64,000 nt of DNA from Saccharibacter floricola DSM 15669 (GCF_000378165.1 NZ_KB899336.1:141092-205091), one strand, 5' to 3'. Shown: positions 44,301 through 57,440, counted from the first letter of the stretch. Made by a program: numbers and translations. Notes: generated from the letters alone by a model not told the origin.

Positions 44301-45098
44301 CTAATGTTGGGATCGTTGAGTGCTTTTCGAGGTGTCCTGCGAAGAAGAAGGCTGTGTAGGCAACGCTCCACCATCGTGAGAAGATGACGAGGACGGCACA
44401 ACGGACGCCTGTGATGTCGACGTCGATGCCCCATTATCTTGATGAGATGACGCAGAGGCCTTCACTGGTGCGGATGAAGACGTTCCTCCAGCATGCTGTT
44501 GAACGGGAGTAGCAGCTTTAGGCTGCACATCACGCGATGAGCCCCCTGCTGGCTCTGTCTTGGAATGGTCTACAGACTCACTCACAACACGACATGAAAC
44601 CGACATATCATCACGATCAACCCGAGAGAATGTCGCTTCATCCCCTTGTGTCGCCCATGAATAGCGATCGGCCACATATTTAGCCCCAGACCCCGATATG
44701 ACATTCGCCATGGCCAGCATATTTCCGTCCACGGGGAGCACAGCCAGCGCTGTCATATCCGCATTAAGATACGACACCATAAAATGCCCGCCTTCAGGGA
44801 GAGATTTAAGCAAGTCTTTCCCTCCATGCTCATCTTTCTTATCGTTATCTGTGCAATGATAGATCACATCCTGACGGTTCGAGGCTTCACCATGATGAAG
44901 CGGCACCATCATCACCCCATTAGGCGAGCTCTTCTCCTGATGGGCAGAGGACTGTTGGGCAGAGGACTGTTGGGCAGAGGACTGTTGGGCAGAGGACTGT
45001 TGGGCAGCATAAGCGCATCCAGCACTTCCCACCAGAAGAGCAAGCCCCATAGGTGCACAACCCATCAAAAATGGTGCTTTCATACGTCCCCTTTTCAC
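44301..45098 (-). CDS. Secreted low-complexity protein with QQSSA repeats
   Basis: I do not recognise this 265-residue protein. It has a signal peptide-like N-terminus (MGLALLVGSAGCAYA, then AQQ). Immediately after this come four tandem QSSAQ-type pentads and a folded central region (about 60–165) containing DVIYHCTDNDKKDE, LPEGGHFMVSYLNADMTALAVLP and KYVADRYSWATQGDEATFSR. The latter resembles the MliC/YbaY-style small β-barrel core of lysozyme inhibitors ('Y.C.dg..', 'Y..g....W'), a weak resemblance only. The tail is a Ser/Gln-rich disordered stretch. It starts four bases inside the upstream glycosyltransferase end, so it may be co-transcribed. Confidence 0.6.
   Translation of the reverse strand: MKRGRMKAPFLMGCAPMGLALLVGSAGCAYAAQQSSAQQSSAQQSSAQQSSAHQEKSSPNGVMMVPLHHGEASNRQDVIYHCTDNDKKDEHGGKDLLKSLPEGGHFMVSYLNADMTALAVLPVDGNMLAMANVISGSGAKYVADRYSWATQGDEATFSRVDRDDMSVSCRVVSESVDHSKTEPAGGSSRDVQPKAATPVQQHAGGTSSSAPVKASASSHQDNGASTSTSQASVVPSSSSSHDGGALPTQPSSSQDTSKSTQRSQH
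44941..45007. repeat. 15-bp tandem repeat, 4.5 copies
   Basis: The unit TGGGCAGAGGACTGT is repeated four times exactly (44941–45000), followed by a partial TGGGCAG. It is in frame with the overlapping gene and encodes QQSSA pentads on the minus strand. Identical copies suggest recent slippage expansion, and the copy number may vary between strains without shifting the frame. Confidence 0.95.
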
Positions 45099-46549
45099 TT
45101 ATCCCAGCTTCCATCACTATGGCGGTACACACCCAGCTGAGAGATCATATCGGCCCAAGCCTGAGCTTTACGCGCTTCATCACACTGATCGGGAGCATGG
45201 CTATTGGCAAAAATCATCCGCGCATCCGCAGCACTCGCCGCCCCGTAATTGGTAAAGAGCACGCGAAACTCAAGATTGGGATAACGCGCAGCAATGGCGT
45301 CAACCAATCGTTTAAAATCAGGCACACGCGTATGAGAAGGGCGATGGCTCCCTTCATAATGAAGCGTCTCCTGCCAATCGCGCACAAAGAGCACACGCTG
45401 TGTCCCATCGCAAAGCTGGTCAAGCTGTGCCAGATAACTCTGATATTCCTGCTTAAGGCGCCCCAGCTGACTATGGAACAGCTCGACACTCGCCCGCTCA
45501 CCGGGGGGAATATCCAAGCAATTATGATAGACAATCAGACTATCGCGACAGCGCAACGCATCGTGATAGCCATAGAGACAATTGGTCGAGAAAAGATCGC
45601 GAAAATCCGTCTCAAATAAAGCAATCAAACTGTGAAAAGGCGCCATAAAGCCGTCAAAAAGCCGCGACCCCGTTTCACCAAAAACCTGCTCTAAATACTG
45701 GGAGATTTTCTCACTTCCACCCAACGAAACAACCGCATCAAAACCGTTATCACTCGGCTGTGTTGCAGGTGTTGGACGATTCAAAGCAGCTTCCATTTCT
45801 TCGCGAAATAGAAACATCTGCTCATCAGAGCGCCATGGGGCCCGATAAAGCAGCTCATGTTGAATCTGCCGATGCAGCTCAACATTGCGGTGCACACATT
45901 CCGGTGTTCCATGCGATTCAGACGGCAATGTCTCCAGCCCGCCACGCAAAAAGAACACTTGGCCCCGTTCCGGCGTTCTAAATTGTGGCAAACCACCATA
46001 CCCCGCTCTTAGAAAGCGATGTGTATGCTCCACATGTTCTTCACCATATTTCTCGAAGCGAACCTCAAGATAGCCGACAAAATCAAGCGCGCGTGCATGA
46101 TAACCGACACAATACGCTTGATGCATCGGCGCAATGTAAGGATCAGCCGCGGTACCAGCACCTGAAGAAACGTCGTTATCAATCTCAAGCGTAATTTCAG
46201 GCATATGATTGATATGGCCATAGGCCTCAACAGCCTCAATCCACTGTTTTTCCCACCCGAACACGCATGGGCGACAATCATCTTCAAACACTAAGATAAC
46301 ATCGCACTGCTTTTCTTCTTTAAGCCACCAGATCGCCCGGTTACGGTTCCAAGCGATCCCGCGATTATCACCGGTTATGTAAGGGACGTGCAGACGCTCC
46401 AGCAAAGATGGCGTACCATCATGGGAGCCATCATCAGCAACGACCAACTCAAAAGGATGTTGGGTAAAGGTGCGCAGTGCTTCCACACATTGCCGCACAG
46501 TATCCTTCCGATTGTAGGTGATGACCCCAATACCAAGCTTTATGGCCAC
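45095..46549 (-). CDS. Glycosyltransferase family 2 fused to a DUF1796-like domain
   Basis: The first 250 residues form a GT2 domain: LGIGVITYNRKDTVRQCVEAL, FELVVADDGSHDGTPSLLE, NRGIAWNRNRAIW, and the metal-site VILVFEDDCRP. Residues about 271–484 resemble DUF1796, a papain-like family: VVSLGGSEKISQYLEQVFG, SRLFDGFMAPFHSLIALFE, FRDLF, and late HYEGSHRP and NLEFRVLFTN. The family's usual catalytic Cys after SLG appears to be replaced by Ser/Glu here. The pairing suggests a surface glycan or glycoprotein enzyme with a non-peptidase accessory domain. It overlaps the downstream secreted-protein gene by four bases. Confidence 0.75.
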   Translation of the reverse strand: MAIKLGIGVITYNRKDTVRQCVEALRTFTQHPFELVVADDGSHDGTPSLLERLHVPYITGDNRGIAWNRNRAIWWLKEEKQCDVILVFEDDCRPCVFGWEKQWIEAVEAYGHINHMPEITLEIDNDVSSGAGTAADPYIAPMHQAYCVGYHARALDFVGYLEVRFEKYGEEHVEHTHRFLRAGYGGLPQFRTPERGQVFFLRGGLETLPSESHGTPECVHRNVELHRQIQHELLYRAPWRSDEQMFLFREEMEAALNRPTPATQPSDNGFDAVVSLGGSEKISQYLEQVFGETGSRLFDGFMAPFHSLIALFETDFRDLFSTNCLYGYHDALRCRDSLIVYHNCLDIPPGERASVELFHSQLGRLKQEYQSYLAQLDQLCDGTQRVLFVRDWQETLHYEGSHRPSHTRVPDFKRLVDAIAARYPNLEFRVLFTNYGAASAADARMIFANSHAPDQCDEARKAQAWADMISQLGVYRHSDGSWDK

Positions 46550-50031: not shown

Positions 50032-51033
50032 TTACGACGGTTGAGGCAATAATTTCTCACTCTGTAAATACTCAACTACACGTTGAAGCCGATGTTTATA
50101 GAGATGTTCCTTCTGCGTACGCTCCTGAGCTTTCCGTGCCATCGCCAAACGCTTTTCATCATCATAAAGATATGTATCAATCAACGTTTCAAAATCCCGT
50201 CGATTTGAAAACACAGGGATCTCGTCCGCCCCATAATAACGGCGCAATTCATACGTCTCTTCATGAAATGCTTGGAAGGCCCCCGCAAGAGCCGCCTCAA
50301 ACGTACGTGGGCCCGGCGTTGAAGGCGCAATCATAAAGCGTTTATTCTCAAAATGCAGAGAACGGCCTAAGTTCAGCACAATCTTCGACCGGCTATAGAG
50401 CTCAATCAGCTCCTTCTTTTCAATACGGGCATCGGAAAAGCCAATCCCCATATCTCCCCATCCCGGGCCAATAAAGCGCGTATTCAGCTTTTCCAGGACA
50501 GGCATGAGATTACGCGCAACTTCTTTACGCGAACTAAAGGCCACACCGCAGAAAAGCACATCAATCGTTTTTTCAGTACGATCATTAAACGGCACATAAT
50601 GCAATTTAGGACAAGCGCCCAGCGGTAGATGCACCACCCGATCACGCTGATAAAAATGATGCCCCCAGCGATCGCAAGAGAAAATCACATCGAAATCATA
50701 AGCGATTTGATAGTTCGCATCCTGCTCATAGGGGTCTTCCGTTGCCCAAAACGCTGTCGTCGCGCCATGTTTCTTCGCCTCACGGGACACTTCTCCATAG
50801 TACGTGCTCTCAGGCAAATAAGACCCCATCGCAAAAACCAGCACAGGCTTTAATAGACGGATTGATGCAGCAGCTGAGGAAATATCAACAGAGGTGACGT
50901 TACCCTCACCAAAGCAGGCTTCAAGACCATCTTTAATCGTCTTGCGCACCTGCGCATTCGCGTGGCTTTCATAGCGTCCACCACTGCACAATAAAACATG
51001 CCCCATGGCTTTAGGCCCTGTCTCTGCTGTCAT
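50032..51033 (-). CDS. CgeB-like glycosyltransferase
   Basis: The 333-residue protein resembles CgeB/DUF3880-type glycosyltransferases. It opens with GHVLLCSGGRYESHANAQVR, then FWATEDPYEQDANYQIAYDFDVIFSCD (given in part), followed by VVHLPLGACPKLHY and DVLFCGVAFSSRKEVARNLM. The sugar-nucleotide-binding C-terminal half contains KKELIELYSRSKIVLNLG and APSTPGPRTFEAALAGAFQ. The acceptor is unknown. It is the last gene of a set of three large glycosyltransferase genes on this strand, 64 bases after the next one, and is followed by a strong terminator. The N-terminal part of the 1117-residue protein is a related domain. Confidence 0.85.
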   Translation of the reverse strand: MTAETGPKAMGHVLLCSGGRYESHANAQVRKTIKDGLEACFGEGNVTSVDISSAAASIRLLKPVLVFAMGSYLPESTYYGEVSREAKKHGATTAFWATEDPYEQDANYQIAYDFDVIFSCDRWGHHFYQRDRVVHLPLGACPKLHYVPFNDRTEKTIDVLFCGVAFSSRKEVARNLMPVLEKLNTRFIGPGWGDMGIGFSDARIEKKELIELYSRSKIVLNLGRSLHFENKRFMIAPSTPGPRTFEAALAGAFQAFHEETYELRRYYGADEIPVFSNRRDFETLIDTYLYDDEKRLAMARKAQERTQKEHLYKHRLQRVVEYLQSEKLLPQPS

Positions 51034-51097: not shown

Positions 51098-54079
51098 TCA
51101 AGCAAAAGAAGCTGTCATGATATCCGCTAGGCGTTTCTTAAAAGCAGCTGGATCAACATCCCGCTTTACCGACGCTAAGGCACCCTCTCTAAGATGATGC
51201 CACAAATCCCGATCATCATACAGTCTTCTCACCGCAGACGCGAAATGCTCAGGAGCCTCTGAAGAAGCCGTCAGCAAGGCCTCTCCATTAGCCCACCCCA
51301 CCTGTTCACCCAAGAGGGACGTCGCCACAATCGGAAGACCATAAGCTGCCGCTTCATGGAGCTTAAAGGGTAGACCACCAGCAAAACGCGTCGGTGCGAC
51401 AAAAACACGATGTCGATCAAACAACGGTGCCAAATCCTCAACCGCGCCTATAATATCCACGCGCGGATGCCGCGCAAGAGGTGTCATATCCACCCAAGGG
51501 GGCACATACCCCGCAATGCGTAACACGACATCATCAGCCAGGCCATCAAGATGGGGCATCACCTCCCTGACAAACCACATCATACTGTCATAATTCGGTG
51601 ATGTTTCACTGTGCATCGCCCCTAAGAAGAGGATATCCTTACGCTCTTCAAAAGACCGTACCGTTGGATGCGGCTTCATGCTATGGCCTAATACGGACAC
51701 ATTGGGATAGCCAGCCCGCCGAACAAGTGCTGCATCTTGCTCAGTAACCGCAACAACCTGCTGGCAATAATGCGCGCTTTGAAGCTCTTCTTTTAAAAGC
51801 GTATCAAGACTTTCCCGAGGCTCTTTACCGTCAACAATTTTTTCTTGCAAAAGTGTCCGTGGCGCTGCCACCACCTCTGTATCCAGCACCGATCCACACC
51901 GGAAGAGAAACCGGCTAGCTTCGCTCAAAATAGGCAATAAACGCGTCATATTATGTGTGCGGCCAATCCAGAGAAGATCATAATAGCCAGCACGCTCTTC
52001 TAGAAAATGCCCCAGCGTGGACATATCCTGCTCGCAAGCCAGCTCAACAGTCTCTGGGAATTCCCGATACAGAAGGAAGCTTTCCTCCTGAACGGGAAGA
52101 ACCGGATAAACGGTAACATGATACCCCAACGCTACCATAGCGCAGATAATATCGTTGGATCGCACATAACCCGACCCTAACCCCCGCAAAGGCATACGAT
52201 CTTCAATAAACAAGACGCGCTTACGGTCAGAACGGCGACGCTCACGCCCAAGCAGCGCATTACGCACATGGGGCGGCTGCTGATGGCGCAAAAACTCCTG
52301 ATGTGTCTGGGCAAATACACGCCAATGTTTCTGGATCAGGTTATGAGAGCCGGCATGACCTGAGCTTCCAAATTCGAGATGCTCAACCACAACGGAGGGG
52401 TCATACACTATCCGCGCGCCAATCTGTCCTAAGCGGACGCATAGATCTGTATCTTCAAAATAAGCTGGAAGGTAGCGTTTATCATACCCTCCTAAACGCC
52501 GTACCAGCCCTGTCCGCACGAGCAAAAAGGCTGCCGAACCGTAATCAACCTCTCGGACAAAATTCGCTTCTGGCAAATTAGGATCATCTTGGCGGCGATA
52601 GCCATAAGTCGCACCATCGCGCCAAATAATAGAGCCCGCCTCCTGCAAATAAAGATTTGAGCGTATAAGTTTCGCGGCAACAGCGCCCGTTTCCTCATGC
52701 TTATAAAGACGTTCCAACGCATGTGGCAGAGCATCTGGATACAATCTTAGATCATTATTCAGGTATAAAATGGCGGGGGCTTTTACATAGGCCAGCCCCA
52801 CATTACACCCCGTCAAATAACCGATATTGGCACGAGAACGTATAATATCCGCCCCATGAACAAGCTTATCAATCTGAGATGTTTCATCAGAAGAGCCTGA
52901 ATCGACTAAGATCAGCTGGATCGACCCACGGTAGTTCGCCCGTAAGGATAAAAGGGCCTGCATGGTCAGAGCAATTTGATTATGCACCACCATAATCACA
53001 CTGACTTCCGGCATCCCCTGCACGCTAAAATCAAGCGGAGAGCGCGCCGTACTCGCCAACAACGCCTCGGCTTCTCGTTTAAAAAGAACGCGTGACTGGC
53101 TCTCCTCAATTTCGGGCGCATTCTCTCCCGTTGGGCCAGCATAGCCCTGACGTTCAGCCACAAAACGCGCAAATGCACTGTCAAACAGTCCATTGTCACA
53201 TTGGGAACGCACAAGGAGATTACGGCTATACGCGGCTAACTCAATCCCTTCTTCTGGAACACGCCCCTCATGAGCACCATAGTAGACAAAATGCTCATAG
53301 CCGTTACGAAATTTTCCCGCTTCTAGCGTGGGAAGAATATCGGGAGAATGTTCAAGATAGTATTCTTCGCAGAAGAAAGGCAGCGGATTGTAACGCCGTG
53401 GCGTGTCATTCGTAAAATAATGATGCAGGGCGTTCGCATAACGTCCCTCCTCAATCCCTCGCTGCACATCCGGGTAAGTCTGCCCATACCAAACCGGATC
53501 AAAATACCATGAAATAGGCGCAGCATCAGCTATTATAGACGGTAACACAAGCCAAGACGCCAGCAATCCTTCATCCCCGAAATAATCCGGGTACCGCGCC
53601 GCCATGTCACGGCAAAGGCGTATGTCCACAAAGGGGCTCCCTTGGAAGCCGCGCCTTTCGCCAATTTCTAGGTAATGATCATACCCGTTCCACAGGCCGT
53701 CTTTTTGCAAAGAAAACTCTGTTAAGGATGGATGGCGCCGCCGGTAATAATGCTCGTCAAACAGCCAATGCGGCGCGTAGGTTTTATACCCTTCTGCACA
53801 ATAATGCTCAAAACCAGACCGCCATGTCTGGTTGATAAGGGCACGATGAACATCGCTATGAGTGTCGCGATACCAGACTTCATCAAAATACCGGTTGGGG
53901 GAGTGCCCATACAGGCACCCCACCTCCCGATAGAAGAGTTCAGGATCATCATAGCCCTTCTCTTCCATCCAAGAGGTAACTTCCGGGTAGCGCAACACAT
54001 ACCACGCACGCTCAAAGATCAACCAGCGCGGCTGACGAGCACCTCTTGGGTCTTCAGACGAGCTAGATGACATAGACAT
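51098..54079 (-). CDS. Multidomain glycosyltransferase: N-terminal repeats, GT2 and GT4
   Basis: The 993-residue protein has an N-terminal region of five related segments (about residues 22–273), such as FDEVWYRDTHSDVHRAL, FDPVWYGQTYPDVQRGI and FCEEYYLEHSPDILPTL. A GT2 domain follows (about 357–590: PEVSVIMVVHNQIALTMQALL, LVDSGSSDETS, YLNNDLRLYPDALPHAL and YFEDTDLCVRLGQIG). The C-terminal part (about 625–990) reads as a GT4-like domain with KDILFLGAMHSE and KLHEAAAYGLPIVATSLLGEQVGW (given in part). It probably adds two different sugars to a surface glycan. It starts seven bases after the gene upstream. Confidence 0.85.
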   Translation of the reverse strand: MSMSSSSSEDPRGARQPRWLIFERAWYVLRYPEVTSWMEEKGYDDPELFYREVGCLYGHSPNRYFDEVWYRDTHSDVHRALINQTWRSGFEHYCAEGYKTYAPHWLFDEHYYRRRHPSLTEFSLQKDGLWNGYDHYLEIGERRGFQGSPFVDIRLCRDMAARYPDYFGDEGLLASWLVLPSIIADAAPISWYFDPVWYGQTYPDVQRGIEEGRYANALHHYFTNDTPRRYNPLPFFCEEYYLEHSPDILPTLEAGKFRNGYEHFVYYGAHEGRVPEEGIELAAYSRNLLVRSQCDNGLFDSAFARFVAERQGYAGPTGENAPEIEESQSRVLFKREAEALLASTARSPLDFSVQGMPEVSVIMVVHNQIALTMQALLSLRANYRGSIQLILVDSGSSDETSQIDKLVHGADIIRSRANIGYLTGCNVGLAYVKAPAILYLNNDLRLYPDALPHALERLYKHEETGAVAAKLIRSNLYLQEAGSIIWRDGATYGYRRQDDPNLPEANFVREVDYGSAAFLLVRTGLVRRLGGYDKRYLPAYFEDTDLCVRLGQIGARIVYDPSVVVEHLEFGSSGHAGSHNLIQKHWRVFAQTHQEFLRHQQPPHVRNALLGRERRRSDRKRVLFIEDRMPLRGLGSGYVRSNDIICAMVALGYHVTVYPVLPVQEESFLLYREFPETVELACEQDMSTLGHFLEERAGYYDLLWIGRTHNMTRLLPILSEASRFLFRCGSVLDTEVVAAPRTLLQEKIVDGKEPRESLDTLLKEELQSAHYCQQVVAVTEQDAALVRRAGYPNVSVLGHSMKPHPTVRSFEERKDILFLGAMHSETSPNYDSMMWFVREVMPHLDGLADDVVLRIAGYVPPWVDMTPLARHPRVDIIGAVEDLAPLFDRHRVFVAPTRFAGGLPFKLHEAAAYGLPIVATSLLGEQVGWANGEALLTASSEAPEHFASAVRRLYDDRDLWHHLREGALASVKRDVDPAAFKKRLADIMTASFA

Positions 54080-54086
54080 AGCCGAC

Positions 54087-57000
54087 TTAACGCTCCATCA
54101 GCTGCAAGATAAGCGACCTCATACGGTCTTCCTGCTTATCAGACGTTTTTTTACGGTCTACCTCGACAACGCGTCCCTTCGTCAAAGTTGCCCGCAACTC
54201 TGTCACTGTCACGCCGTACAGATCACCGGCAATATTAACCAACGCAATGCGCCATGTCCCGTCCATTTTATCAACCTGCCCCTGCCAAGGCCGGAGCACT
54301 TCATGGAAGCCAGAGCACAATGGTGCATCACGATGGACAACCTGAACATCATTCCGGGCAAAACGTTCCGTTGCAAAGAGGCCGATTTCATCGTCCTTCT
54401 CATGCACCATTGCCACAAAAATCTGCCCTGACCGCGTGAGTCCTTCTAGGAAGCTCCATCCGCGGATAAAGAGCGCTCCTTGGTCATGATCAGACGCTCC
54501 CTCGGCCCCCATGATCTCAAACGTATCAATAAAGTGCGTCAACTGTCCGCGCTCATACGGATAGAACGCCCCTGCTGGGAAACGCGACAAACGAATACCA
54601 CGCAGCAGATTGTCGCTTTTTAACAAGCGGCGGAAATCACTCAAGATAACGTCATTAGAAGGCGGAGAGGTATAAACCTGCTCAATCTTACTGCCCTTAA
54701 CCTCCACACCATGAGAAAGAAGCTGGAAGGCAGCGCGGCCATTAATGATGTTAATAAGCCCAATACGATAACGCCCTTCACACCATTTACCACGCAAAGC
54801 AGCCTGCGCTGAAAAACCCGAACGACGCGGCACATTCGCACCGAACAAGTTAGAAATATCTGACCGTATCTCGCGTTGAGCCTGCATAAAGATGAGCGGA
54901 CCATCGGGATCGTCACTCACAAGAACGACGTAAATCTGCCCAGACGTACTCACATCCGGCAAGAAGGTCCAACCACGGATATGGAACTCATCCGCAGCCT
55001 TAAAGCGCTTCTCATACCCCTCAGAAAGCACACAATGGCAGATGTCATCCACGTAGCATTGAGCCCCCTGGATAGCGAACCAGTCAATAATCTGGGGAGG
55101 CAAACCAATCGACAGGTCACGCGAAATGGGAGGATCAAAAATATGCCGTGGGGGCGCTTGGTGCCGCCATGATGCAATCGGCAGAATATGAAGTTGCCCC
55201 ACATCAAGCTGAAGCTCAGACACACCCATACTGCGACGTGGTGCAATACGACGATACAGCTCAAGCAGGCCTTTGCCGTATTCTTTCTCATGCGTCCACA
55301 GCTTCGGTGAAATGGCCTCCATCATCTTCTTACGAAGAGAATCTGATGACCGCAGCAATTCAAGCCGTTCTAGGACAATATCAGGACGGCTCACGGGCAC
55401 TTTAAAGCCATTGACACCATCGGTCACACGGTCACCCAAACCGCCAATATCGGTCACAATCGGCACAAGCCCATGCTGCCATGCTTCTGAAAGCGAAATA
55501 CAGTAGGTTTCGGGCCAGATGGACAGCGCTAAGGAGACGTCCGCCTGCTGCAATACACTGGTATTACCAATATCATAACGTCCATGCACCGTAACATCAG
55601 AACGCTTCATCTGGTCAAAAACCCCCTGATATTCAGGGTGGATATAACCAAAGATATGGAAGTGAAAATGCCCCGGACGCGCGGCCTCAATGAGAGCGAG
55701 AATAGTGTCTGCTCCCTTTGTCCGTAAAAAGTTCCCAACGATCGCCACACTCAATGGGCGCCCATCAAGAGGCTTATAAGCCTTTGGCGTAACCGGAACC
55801 GTCGTTTCAGGGCTCGGGATTCCGTTCACGACACTCAGTTTTTGATCCAAAATCGGATAAACTGAATGCATCAAATCGCGCGAATACGGCGTCCCGAACA
55901 TAATCGCATCAATATGATGCAACATACGGTCGATAAAGGCACGACGCGTCTGCTCCCCACCATATTCCACGCCTTCTGCGACCTTGAGCATAACATCCAT
56001 CGCCAAGACAGAGGTGAACTCACCCTCCACATGGCGCAAATCCTGATTAAGGAGGTTATAACGCGATGAAATAAGCCAGAAATCATGGGCAGAGAAGACA
56101 ACGCCCGTACCATTCGCTTTCGCGATTAACGGCAAGGAAAGCGCATGATGGCCCAAATGCTGGAAATGCACGATGTCAATATTATACTGGCTAATGACGC
56201 TGGAGAACATGCCCTCCTCAGCCGCATCACACACGACATCTTGCCAAGGCTGCTCTGTAATATCAAAACGCTCAAGCTCTTGCCCAGCAGCACTCAGCAA
56301 GCGGCAAAAATTACCGCGTCTCAACCAATAGAAAAATTCGACATCGCGCCCTAAGAGCGAACATAGACCGCGCTGGTAAACTTCAACGCCGCCCCATTCC
56401 TGCTCATGGATCGTGGAGTGTGTGCACATCAGCACACGCAAGCGATGACGCCGCTCTACCAGAGGAATTGTCTGGTTTTTACGACGAGAGAAGTTCGCTT
56501 TCGTAATATCGCGCATCTGCTCAAGGCGATGCTCATAAAGATGCTGCTTTAATGCACTTTTTTGAGACGTCTGCGCAGCACGGCGACGAGCAGCCTTATT
56601 ATTGAGAAGCCGTGAAACAGCCTCAACCACCTCGTCAGGATCATGAGCTAAGCTAAAACCATCGAGGCTTTTGAAATGCTCCATATCCATTCCAGGAGCC
56701 GCTTCGACAACTTGAGCGGTTCCTGCCAGAGCAAGTTCAAAAAAGCGAGGCCCAGGTGCTGTCGCCTGACTGACATCGCCATGACTTGCATAATCACGAA
56801 ACATGGTCAGCGTCACAGCACTGACATTGGCGAAATCGACAAAAGCCTCATGACTGACTGGCCGCTGCAACGCCAAGGCTGAAATATCATCTGGGAGGGG
56901 AGGAAGATATTCATTGCCCGGGCAAATCAGCTTCAGACGTGCCTCAGGGAAGGCGGCAATAACACGCCGCAAAGTCTGTACGCGATTAGGCCACATCGTG

Positions 57001-57440
57001 CCGGCAAAAAACAGATCATACTCAAAAGAGTCGGCCGGCTGAATAGGCCGCTCATGCAACCAACGACTTGCCGCTAGAGGAAGATAATGCCCTTTGTTTT
57101 GATATGCTGAAACACAGGATGGATCATTGGTGAAGATATGATCAAATAGAGGCCCTGCTTCGACGTTAAAGTCCTTCATAAACGGATCTTCAAACGTCCA
57201 TAAGATCATGGTCTTAAAAGCTGGACGCACACGCCGGATCAACGCCGTATTGAGACGCTGCCCATCAATACATAGCAGCGTGTCGTGCTCCCCTGCCGCT
57301 GCAAGCTCCCCCAAACTCATATTATCTGCAACAACAATATTGTCCTTGCCGAAAAGGAGCTCCGCAGCCTGCCTAATAGCAAGGGTAAGATATGAGTTGG
57401 GGTTATGTGTGTAGTTGGTATTATAGATAATAGCCATCAT
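54087..57440 (-). CDS. Giant glycosyltransferase: CgeB-like, GT4 and two C-terminal repeat modules
   Basis: This 1117-residue protein is a fusion. Residues 1–330 form a CgeB-like domain (YDLFFAGTMWPNRVQTLRR and ATAPGPRFFELALAGTAQVVEAA). Residues about 345–730 form a GT4 domain (MCTHSTIHEQEWGGVEVYQRGL, given in part; GVVFSAHDFWLIS; LSVVNGIPSP; SLSEAWQHGLVPIVTDIGGLGDRV). The tail has two copies of a β-rich module at about 820–915 and 991–1085, each starting RGW(T/S)FL and carrying SGF and a GxW/Y-R-I-x-L-(I/V)-N strand. The modules may bind the glycan acceptor. It is the first gene of the three glycosyltransferase genes on this strand. Confidence 0.85.
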   Translation of the reverse strand: MMAIIYNTNYTHNPNSYLTLAIRQAAELLFGKDNIVVADNMSLGELAAAGEHDTLLCIDGQRLNTALIRRVRPAFKTMILWTFEDPFMKDFNVEAGPLFDHIFTNDPSCVSAYQNKGHYLPLAASRWLHERPIQPADSFEYDLFFAGTMWPNRVQTLRRVIAAFPEARLKLICPGNEYLPPLPDDISALALQRPVSHEAFVDFANVSAVTLTMFRDYASHGDVSQATAPGPRFFELALAGTAQVVEAAPGMDMEHFKSLDGFSLAHDPDEVVEAVSRLLNNKAARRRAAQTSQKSALKQHLYEHRLEQMRDITKANFSRRKNQTIPLVERRHRLRVLMCTHSTIHEQEWGGVEVYQRGLCSLLGRDVEFFYWLRRGNFCRLLSAAGQELERFDITEQPWQDVVCDAAEEGMFSSVISQYNIDIVHFQHLGHHALSLPLIAKANGTGVVFSAHDFWLISSRYNLLNQDLRHVEGEFTSVLAMDVMLKVAEGVEYGGEQTRRAFIDRMLHHIDAIMFGTPYSRDLMHSVYPILDQKLSVVNGIPSPETTVPVTPKAYKPLDGRPLSVAIVGNFLRTKGADTILALIEAARPGHFHFHIFGYIHPEYQGVFDQMKRSDVTVHGRYDIGNTSVLQQADVSLALSIWPETYCISLSEAWQHGLVPIVTDIGGLGDRVTDGVNGFKVPVSRPDIVLERLELLRSSDSLRKKMMEAISPKLWTHEKEYGKGLLELYRRIAPRRSMGVSELQLDVGQLHILPIASWRHQAPPRHIFDPPISRDLSIGLPPQIIDWFAIQGAQCYVDDICHCVLSEGYEKRFKAADEFHIRGWTFLPDVSTSGQIYVVLVSDDPDGPLIFMQAQREIRSDISNLFGANVPRRSGFSAQAALRGKWCEGRYRIGLINIINGRAAFQLLSHGVEVKGSKIEQVYTSPPSNDVILSDFRRLLKSDNLLRGIRLSRFPAGAFYPYERGQLTHFIDTFEIMGAEGASDHDQGALFIRGWSFLEGLTRSGQIFVAMVHEKDDEIGLFATERFARNDVQVVHRDAPLCSGFHEVLRPWQGQVDKMDGTWRIALVNIAGDLYGVTVTELRATLTKGRVVEVDRKKTSDKQEDRMRSLILQLMER

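Follow-up and report, generated by a model that had tools for sequence, protein, structure and literature searches.

A dual glycosyltransferase with two C-terminal modules of predicted Ig-like fold in Saccharibacter floricola and other acetic acid bacteria

The dual-glycosyltransferase gene and its operon

The window analysed here, a stretch of 64,000 nucleotides from the genome of Saccharibacter floricola DSM 15669, harbours on its minus strand a gene (54087..57440) for a protein of 1117 amino acids, in which a CgeB-type glycosyltransferase, a GT4-type glycosyltransferase and two C-terminal modules follow one another in a single chain. The CgeB-type part comprises residues 1-325 (56466..57440, minus strand) and includes a C-lobe recognised as Glyco_trans_1_2 (PF13524) at residues 159-310, with 65.9 bits against a Pfam cut-off of 25 (E 4.9e-18); its TAPGPRFFELALAGTAQVVE motif is conserved in 15 orthologues, the CgeB-type stretch TAPGPRFFELALAG being retained with minor changes in all 15 of the orthologues aligned. 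The GT4-type part (residues 332-735; 55236..56447, minus strand) is matched by PF00534 and PF13692 with E about 1e-13. The Glycos_transf_1/Glyco_trans_1_4 matches at residues 560-709 all exceed their cut-offs (PF00534 reaches 50.6 bits against 26.4), and that of Glyco_transf_4 at residues 412-538 is barely over its own. The EX7E motif of this domain, lying within WPETYCISLSEAW, spans E644-E652 (55485..55511, minus strand), and both glutamates are kept in 15/15 aligned orthologues. The mean identity across the family is 69% for the CgeB part and 68% for the GT4 part. With these motifs kept, the two catalytic halves look intact, and the preliminary description was right to place a CgeB-like and a GT4 domain in one chain. 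The protein resembles known CgeB-type and GT4 enzymes in its matches above the Pfam cut-offs and in the EX7E motif of its GT4 half, and differs from them in joining both to the paired modules within a single chain. A scan for transmembrane segments of the whole 1117-residue protein revealed nothing resembling one.

Beyond residue 735 no Pfam match rises above its cut-off. This part begins with a linker (residues 736-785; 55086..55235, minus strand) that contains a strongly conserved QAPPRHIFDPP motif in the alignments, and for which AlphaFold2 yields mostly low pLDDT values when the linker is considered on its own. Module 1 (residues 786-922; 54675..55085, minus strand) is separated from module 2 (residues 965-1096; 54153..54548, minus strand) by a segment with one predicted helix and a conserved LRGI(K/R)L motif (residues 923-964; 54549..54674, minus strand), and the chain ends with another predicted helix (residues 1101-1116; 54093..54140, minus strand).

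The gene is the first and largest of three on the same strand. Only 7 nt separate it in the window from the second (51098..54079, minus strand; 993 amino acids), whose product combines FDxxWYxxxYPDV-type repeats with GT2 and GT4 domains; the third (50032..51033, minus strand; 333 amino acids) encodes a stand-alone CgeB-type glycosyltransferase (PF13524, E 2e-24). Both are conserved neighbours, and the GT2/GT4 gene adjoins the dual-glycosyltransferase gene in nearly all named orthologue loci. The repeats, which make up approximately the first 340 residues of the second product, are matched by no Pfam model. In most genera the order is aroA-cmk-rpsA followed by the dual-glycosyltransferase gene, the gene combining WY repeats with GT2 and GT4, and the CgeB gene, after which a gene for an M16 peptidase on the opposite strand is often found; in the records from Acetobacter the three glycosyltransferase genes stay together, in reversed order and at a distance from rpsA. 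Scans of the operon for promoters and terminators gave signals at shuffle level only. Our search of the literature on the operon, on CgeB in acetic acid bacteria and on CgeB in connection with flagellin found nothing relevant, and the operon context of the dual-glycosyltransferase gene is new here.

Several observations were made at this locus and its counterparts along the way. The GT2/GT4 neighbour in genome G042 (L137 4712-9985, minus strand) has grown to 1757 amino acids through three blocks of FDxxWYxxxYPxV repeats. Elsewhere in the window, a gene at 45095-46549 (minus strand) specifies a 484-residue GT2 protein with a C-terminal half weakly similar to DUF1796 (papain-like; E 0.03), and a 15-bp tandem repeat with 4.7 copies (44937-45007) encodes repeated QQSSA units close to the start of a 265-residue ORF whose N-terminus is signal-like.

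Searching the first 60 genomes of the family turned up full-length orthologues (51-97% identity) in 15, one of them the genome of the window; 40 genomes of the class that belong to other families yielded none. The closest named record, from Saccharibacter sp. EH611, is 97% identical over the protein; the other named carriers belong to Bombella/Parasaccharibacter, Gluconobacter, Neokomagataea, Asaia, Swaminathania, Tanticharoenia, Brytella, Acidomonas and Acetobacter. In one genome (G167, locus L078) stops and frame changes interrupt both the dual-glycosyltransferase gene and the GT2/GT4 gene next to it, and the product is therefore dispensable there.

Loci with multiple glycosyltransferases often modify flagellin, and the genome to which the window belongs does have a flagellin. 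The operon might hence be imagined as a dedicated flagellin glycosylation system with modules that recognise this protein. However, no flagellin is detectable in 11 of the 31 genomes carrying the gene, one of them from the same genus and all of them at least 98% complete, and no flagellar genes reside at the locus. Since the operon is present in those 11 genomes, a dedicated flagellin system appears very improbable to us; this evidence against such a role is new here. From a multi-glycosyltransferase operon that has no dedicated flagellin substrate we infer, as did the preliminary description, a surface glycan as the product.

The duplicated C-terminal module

The preliminary description had pointed to two similar segments in the C-terminal part (54698–54983 and 54188–54470), which correspond to residues 820-915 and 991-1085; the true repeats extend over residues of about 786-922 and 965-1096. 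The two copies share 36% identity over 84 columns, with a Smith-Waterman score of 96 compared to a best score of 49 (mean 25, sd 4.4) among 5000 shuffles, and the family profiles of the two copies align over 126 columns with E 5e-27 and a probability of 99.7%, so that the repeats are real. The pattern originally proposed for them needs some correction: the motif at the end reads [Y/W]-R-I-x-L-[I/V]-N, with Y in copy 1, and "SGQI" is largely specific to the genus, because the only invariant columns in an alignment of 28 rows from the whole family (in copy-1 numbering) are GW, G49, R74, P86, GF and G104. The order of motifs characteristic of the module is ID / GW / R-x-D-V / GF.

A β-sandwich had also been suspected, and the AlphaFold2 models agree with this, giving both copies the same order of strands. 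The model of the 382-residue tail, built with 40 orthologues as input, consists of two β-sandwiches (mean pLDDT 84) with an identical succession of strands and with a short helix ahead of the GF strand; module 1 modelled alone reaches a pLDDT of 91.8 and a pTM of 0.87. A Foldseek search with the two-module model retrieved mainly antibody Fabs, which we read only as an indication of a tandem Ig-like arrangement. Searched by fold against the PDB, module 1 alone has no match at E 0.001 or better, and what either module matches there is generically Ig-like and at background level, the best matches having Z 7.3-7.5. Amylase-family and starch-binding Ig-like domains are among the fold neighbours of module 1, at Z values (up to 7.5) that represent background. 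By fold, the two-module tail is matched best by the wall teichoic acid rhamnosyltransferase RmlT of Listeria monocytogenes (PDB 8bz8, 8bz7, 9gzk), in which the C-terminal domain (chain residues 341-511) superposes on module 2 over 113 aligned residues with rmsd 3.5 and Z 7.3, again within the background range. RmlT differs from the protein studied here in being a single glycosyltransferase of another type, and the identity is 7%.

As the preliminary description supposed, the module has no name: none of the models in Pfam, NCBIfam and PHROGs matches it, and 28 module sequences compared with Pfam gave no match to a CBM or Big family up to E 10. We rejected a candidate match to DUF7259 (E 0.099), which lies under the cut-off and involves a single member only. 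Taken as a whole, the feature singled out by the preliminary description is genuine and its broad nature was read correctly.

Nearly every complete orthologue retains the pair of modules; G171 has a single module, and G128 has two divergent copies. Sequences of copy 1 cluster with one another across genera, separately from those of copy 2, and the two copies of G128 fit this split. We conclude from this clustering, in which several supports are modest, that the duplication is old and appears to predate the spread of the genera. The two modules have not been conserved to the same degree: the mean identity is 55% for module 1 and 37% for module 2, as against 68% for the glycosyltransferases. The fast evolution of module 2, together with the single module of G171, might be expected if the modules were mainly structural, that is, spacers or stabilisers packed on the GT-B domains and having neither a ligand nor a partner of their own. 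We nevertheless regard this as quite improbable, considering that parts of module 1, LRGxWxEG and PRRxGF among them, have stayed invariant and that the pair is so rarely reduced.

A search of 200 Acetobacteraceae genomes with the 28-row module profile returned matches almost only in the dual-glycosyltransferase gene, and the same search of 385 genomes of the class outside the family gave chance-level matches only. Recognisable copies of the module are thus nearly confined to this gene and to the Acetobacteraceae. The profile also weakly hit isocitrate lyases (in the PDB, and at positions 4-47 in frames of 443-475 amino acids), which we dismissed as chance matches because they end before the R-x-D and GF columns.

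The genome G015 has extra copies of the module on other proteins. Its GT2/GT4 enzyme (L136 5715-9230, minus strand; 1171 amino acids) has a module of its own at the N-terminus, followed by WY-type repeats, and a 472-residue protein (L077 4698-6116, minus strand), encoded at the rpsA site that the operon occupies in other genera, consists of a module and WY repeats and is devoid of a glycosyltransferase domain. It follows that the module moves among enzymes belonging to one operon and, given its presence on the GT2/GT4 neighbour, is common to enzymes of one pathway. These observations bear on the main rival to a glycan-binding role, namely that the modules are docking domains that bind no glycan and instead tether the operon's three glycosyltransferases to one another or bring in a protein as acceptor. 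The occurrence of the module on two different enzymes of the operon fits docking well, and its fusion in G015 to the type of repeats that forms the N-terminus of the neighbouring enzyme is the best evidence for it. Ig-like folds often mediate plain protein-protein contacts, which counts against the glycan reading, and the best fold match of module 2 is a domain of a glycosyltransferase, RmlT. The argument against docking comes from the more distant relatives of the module.

Distant relatives of the module

The module profile weakly matches a polytopic membrane protein of genome G005 in its C-terminal domain. The reverse search, starting from this domain, supports the match: it recovers module 1 of the window (E 1.6e-7), together with a membrane protein of the same kind in G171 (5.5e-11). 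With a widened profile, A2, the same type of protein was recovered from G608, a genome outside the class (E 4e-13), and more weakly from G603, where the distant relative also touches Big_7 at a weak E of 0.061. In three genomes, the distant relatives are C-terminal on membrane proteins (checked by a transmembrane scan for G005), and such copies are rare, being found in 2 of 274 genomes in the class of G608. The membrane proteins bearing a C-terminal relative of the module are about 800 residues long (L079 4479-6914, minus strand; L142; L185; L191 4517-6895, minus strand). An NAD-dependent epimerase-like gene lies near them in both G005 and G608, suggesting a small cluster transferred between distant Proteobacteria.

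When the A2 profile was compared with all PDB sequences, the best match was the C-terminal domain of EfAmi1 (PDB 8c4d sequence), a prophage endolysin of Enterococcus faecium, with an E of 0.011 that is marginal alone. Profiles of the module and of the endolysin domain, the latter drawn from related phage endolysins, align with a probability of 90%, E 1.4e-6 and a score of 41.2; none of 200 column shuffles, which constitute a lenient control, scored above 21.4. A comparison of predicted folds led to the same relative: in BFVD, a collection of predicted viral proteins, the sole match below 1e-3 is the endolysin of the Enterococcus phage vB_EfaP_Zip (E 8.9e-4, probability 1.00; 17% identity, TM-score 0.52 and rmsd 6.6, a predicted structure being compared with a predicted one), which is also found by sequence from the EfAmi1 fragment. 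The sequence match to EfAmi1 and the predicted-fold match to vB_EfaP_Zip therefore represent the same relative reached by separate routes. The endolysin domains, likewise unnamed, have the motif order ID / GW / R-x-D-V / G(F/Y), the same as that of the module, but differ from it in sitting on a peptidoglycan-cutting amidase that acts on the cell wall, the identity being about 17%. We conclude that the module and the domain at the C-terminus of Enterococcus phage endolysins are related, as judged by sequence and predicted fold, a link that is new here. In the EfAmi1 study this domain is described as unclassified and is absent from the crystal, and the authors put it forward as a new carbohydrate-binding module, which is a proposal and not the result of an assay (PMC10167349).

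A third set of possible relatives comes from the Acetobacteraceae themselves. A domain with the motifs G-x-ID ... GWA ... R-x-D-L ... HGF, which we refer to as the GWA domain, is found in large numbers on glycosyltransferases, in 41 of 60 genomes of the family (L151-L180). It shares with the module the order of motifs, the kind of host protein and a frequent tandem arrangement, but it is shorter (about 90 residues); neither Pfam nor the PDB contains a match to it. Its profile aligns with that of the module at a probability of 25-45%, the 45% going with a score of 26.5 against a shuffle maximum of 19.2. This is a weak match, no more than suggestive, and judging from the two profiles a common ancestry seems likely.

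The fact that relatives occur on phage endolysins and on membrane proteins encoded in unrelated clusters, where there is no comparable docking partner, makes a glycan ligand the simpler common denominator, and we consequently hold protein docking among the operon enzymes to be rather unlikely.

A possible role in building an envelope glycan

Glycosyltransferases with appended binding domains are already known. The closest parallel is TarS, the wall teichoic acid β-GlcNAc transferase of Staphylococcus aureus, which likewise has two tandem C-terminal Ig-like domains, a fold that is predicted only in our case. These β-sandwich domains have been described as resembling carbohydrate-binding modules; they trimerise the enzyme, and TarS without them has a higher Km for the polymer and a lower intrinsic processivity (PMC5156392). 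The parallel has its limits, as TarS has one GT-A (GT2) catalytic domain whereas the CgeB-type and GT4 parts of the dual glycosyltransferase are both of GT-B families, and the TarS domains resemble CBM48/CBM68, whereas the modules described here have no sequence match in any CBM family.

With moderate confidence, we favour the view that the protein is a cytoplasmic dual glycosyltransferase in which the pair of Ig-like modules serves to hold the acceptor glycan, to oligomerise the enzyme, or both. Judging from the glycosyltransferase families involved, the soluble protein would act in the cytoplasm, transferring sugar from a nucleotide-sugar donor to an acceptor linked to a lipid or a protein. 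Two active sites per chain, together with five glycosyltransferase units in the operon, would suit the synthesis of one defined oligosaccharide or repeat, and in acetic acid bacteria the three genes probably serve to build a glycan of the cell envelope that is not essential. By analogy with TarS, the paired modules may keep the growing acceptor near the two active sites and/or join enzyme chains, with a possible effect on processivity. By the same analogy, the assembly may be processive, as the preliminary description suggested. The acceptor- or carbohydrate-binding function considered for the modules in the preliminary description is plausible and has indirect support from their relation to the endolysin domains in sequence and predicted fold and, at background Z, from the starch-binding Ig-like domains among the fold neighbours of module 1.

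A broader proposal, which we put forward tentatively, is that the module is the founding member of a superfamily, so far uncurated, of Ig-like β-sandwiches that bind glycans and have the motifs ID / GW / R-x-D-V or L / GF in this order. Its members would be found on builders of envelope glycans, including soluble dual glycosyltransferases, membrane glycosyltransferases and proteins with the abundant GWA domains of Acetobacteraceae, as well as on phage endolysins, which cut cell walls, and the dual glycosyltransferase would keep hold of its product via the tandem of modules.

The module has no name and no model even though the operon encoding it is conserved in many genera of acetic acid bacteria, among them bee symbionts (Bombella, Parasaccharibacter) and the industrially used Gluconobacter. 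A model of the superfamily would annotate many proteins currently recorded as "glycosyltransferase" with unexplained domains. Moreover, the tie to the endolysin domain reduces the matter to one question, that of the glycan bound, and the answer would inform both the assembly of the cell envelope in these bacteria and the recognition of targets by phage lysins.
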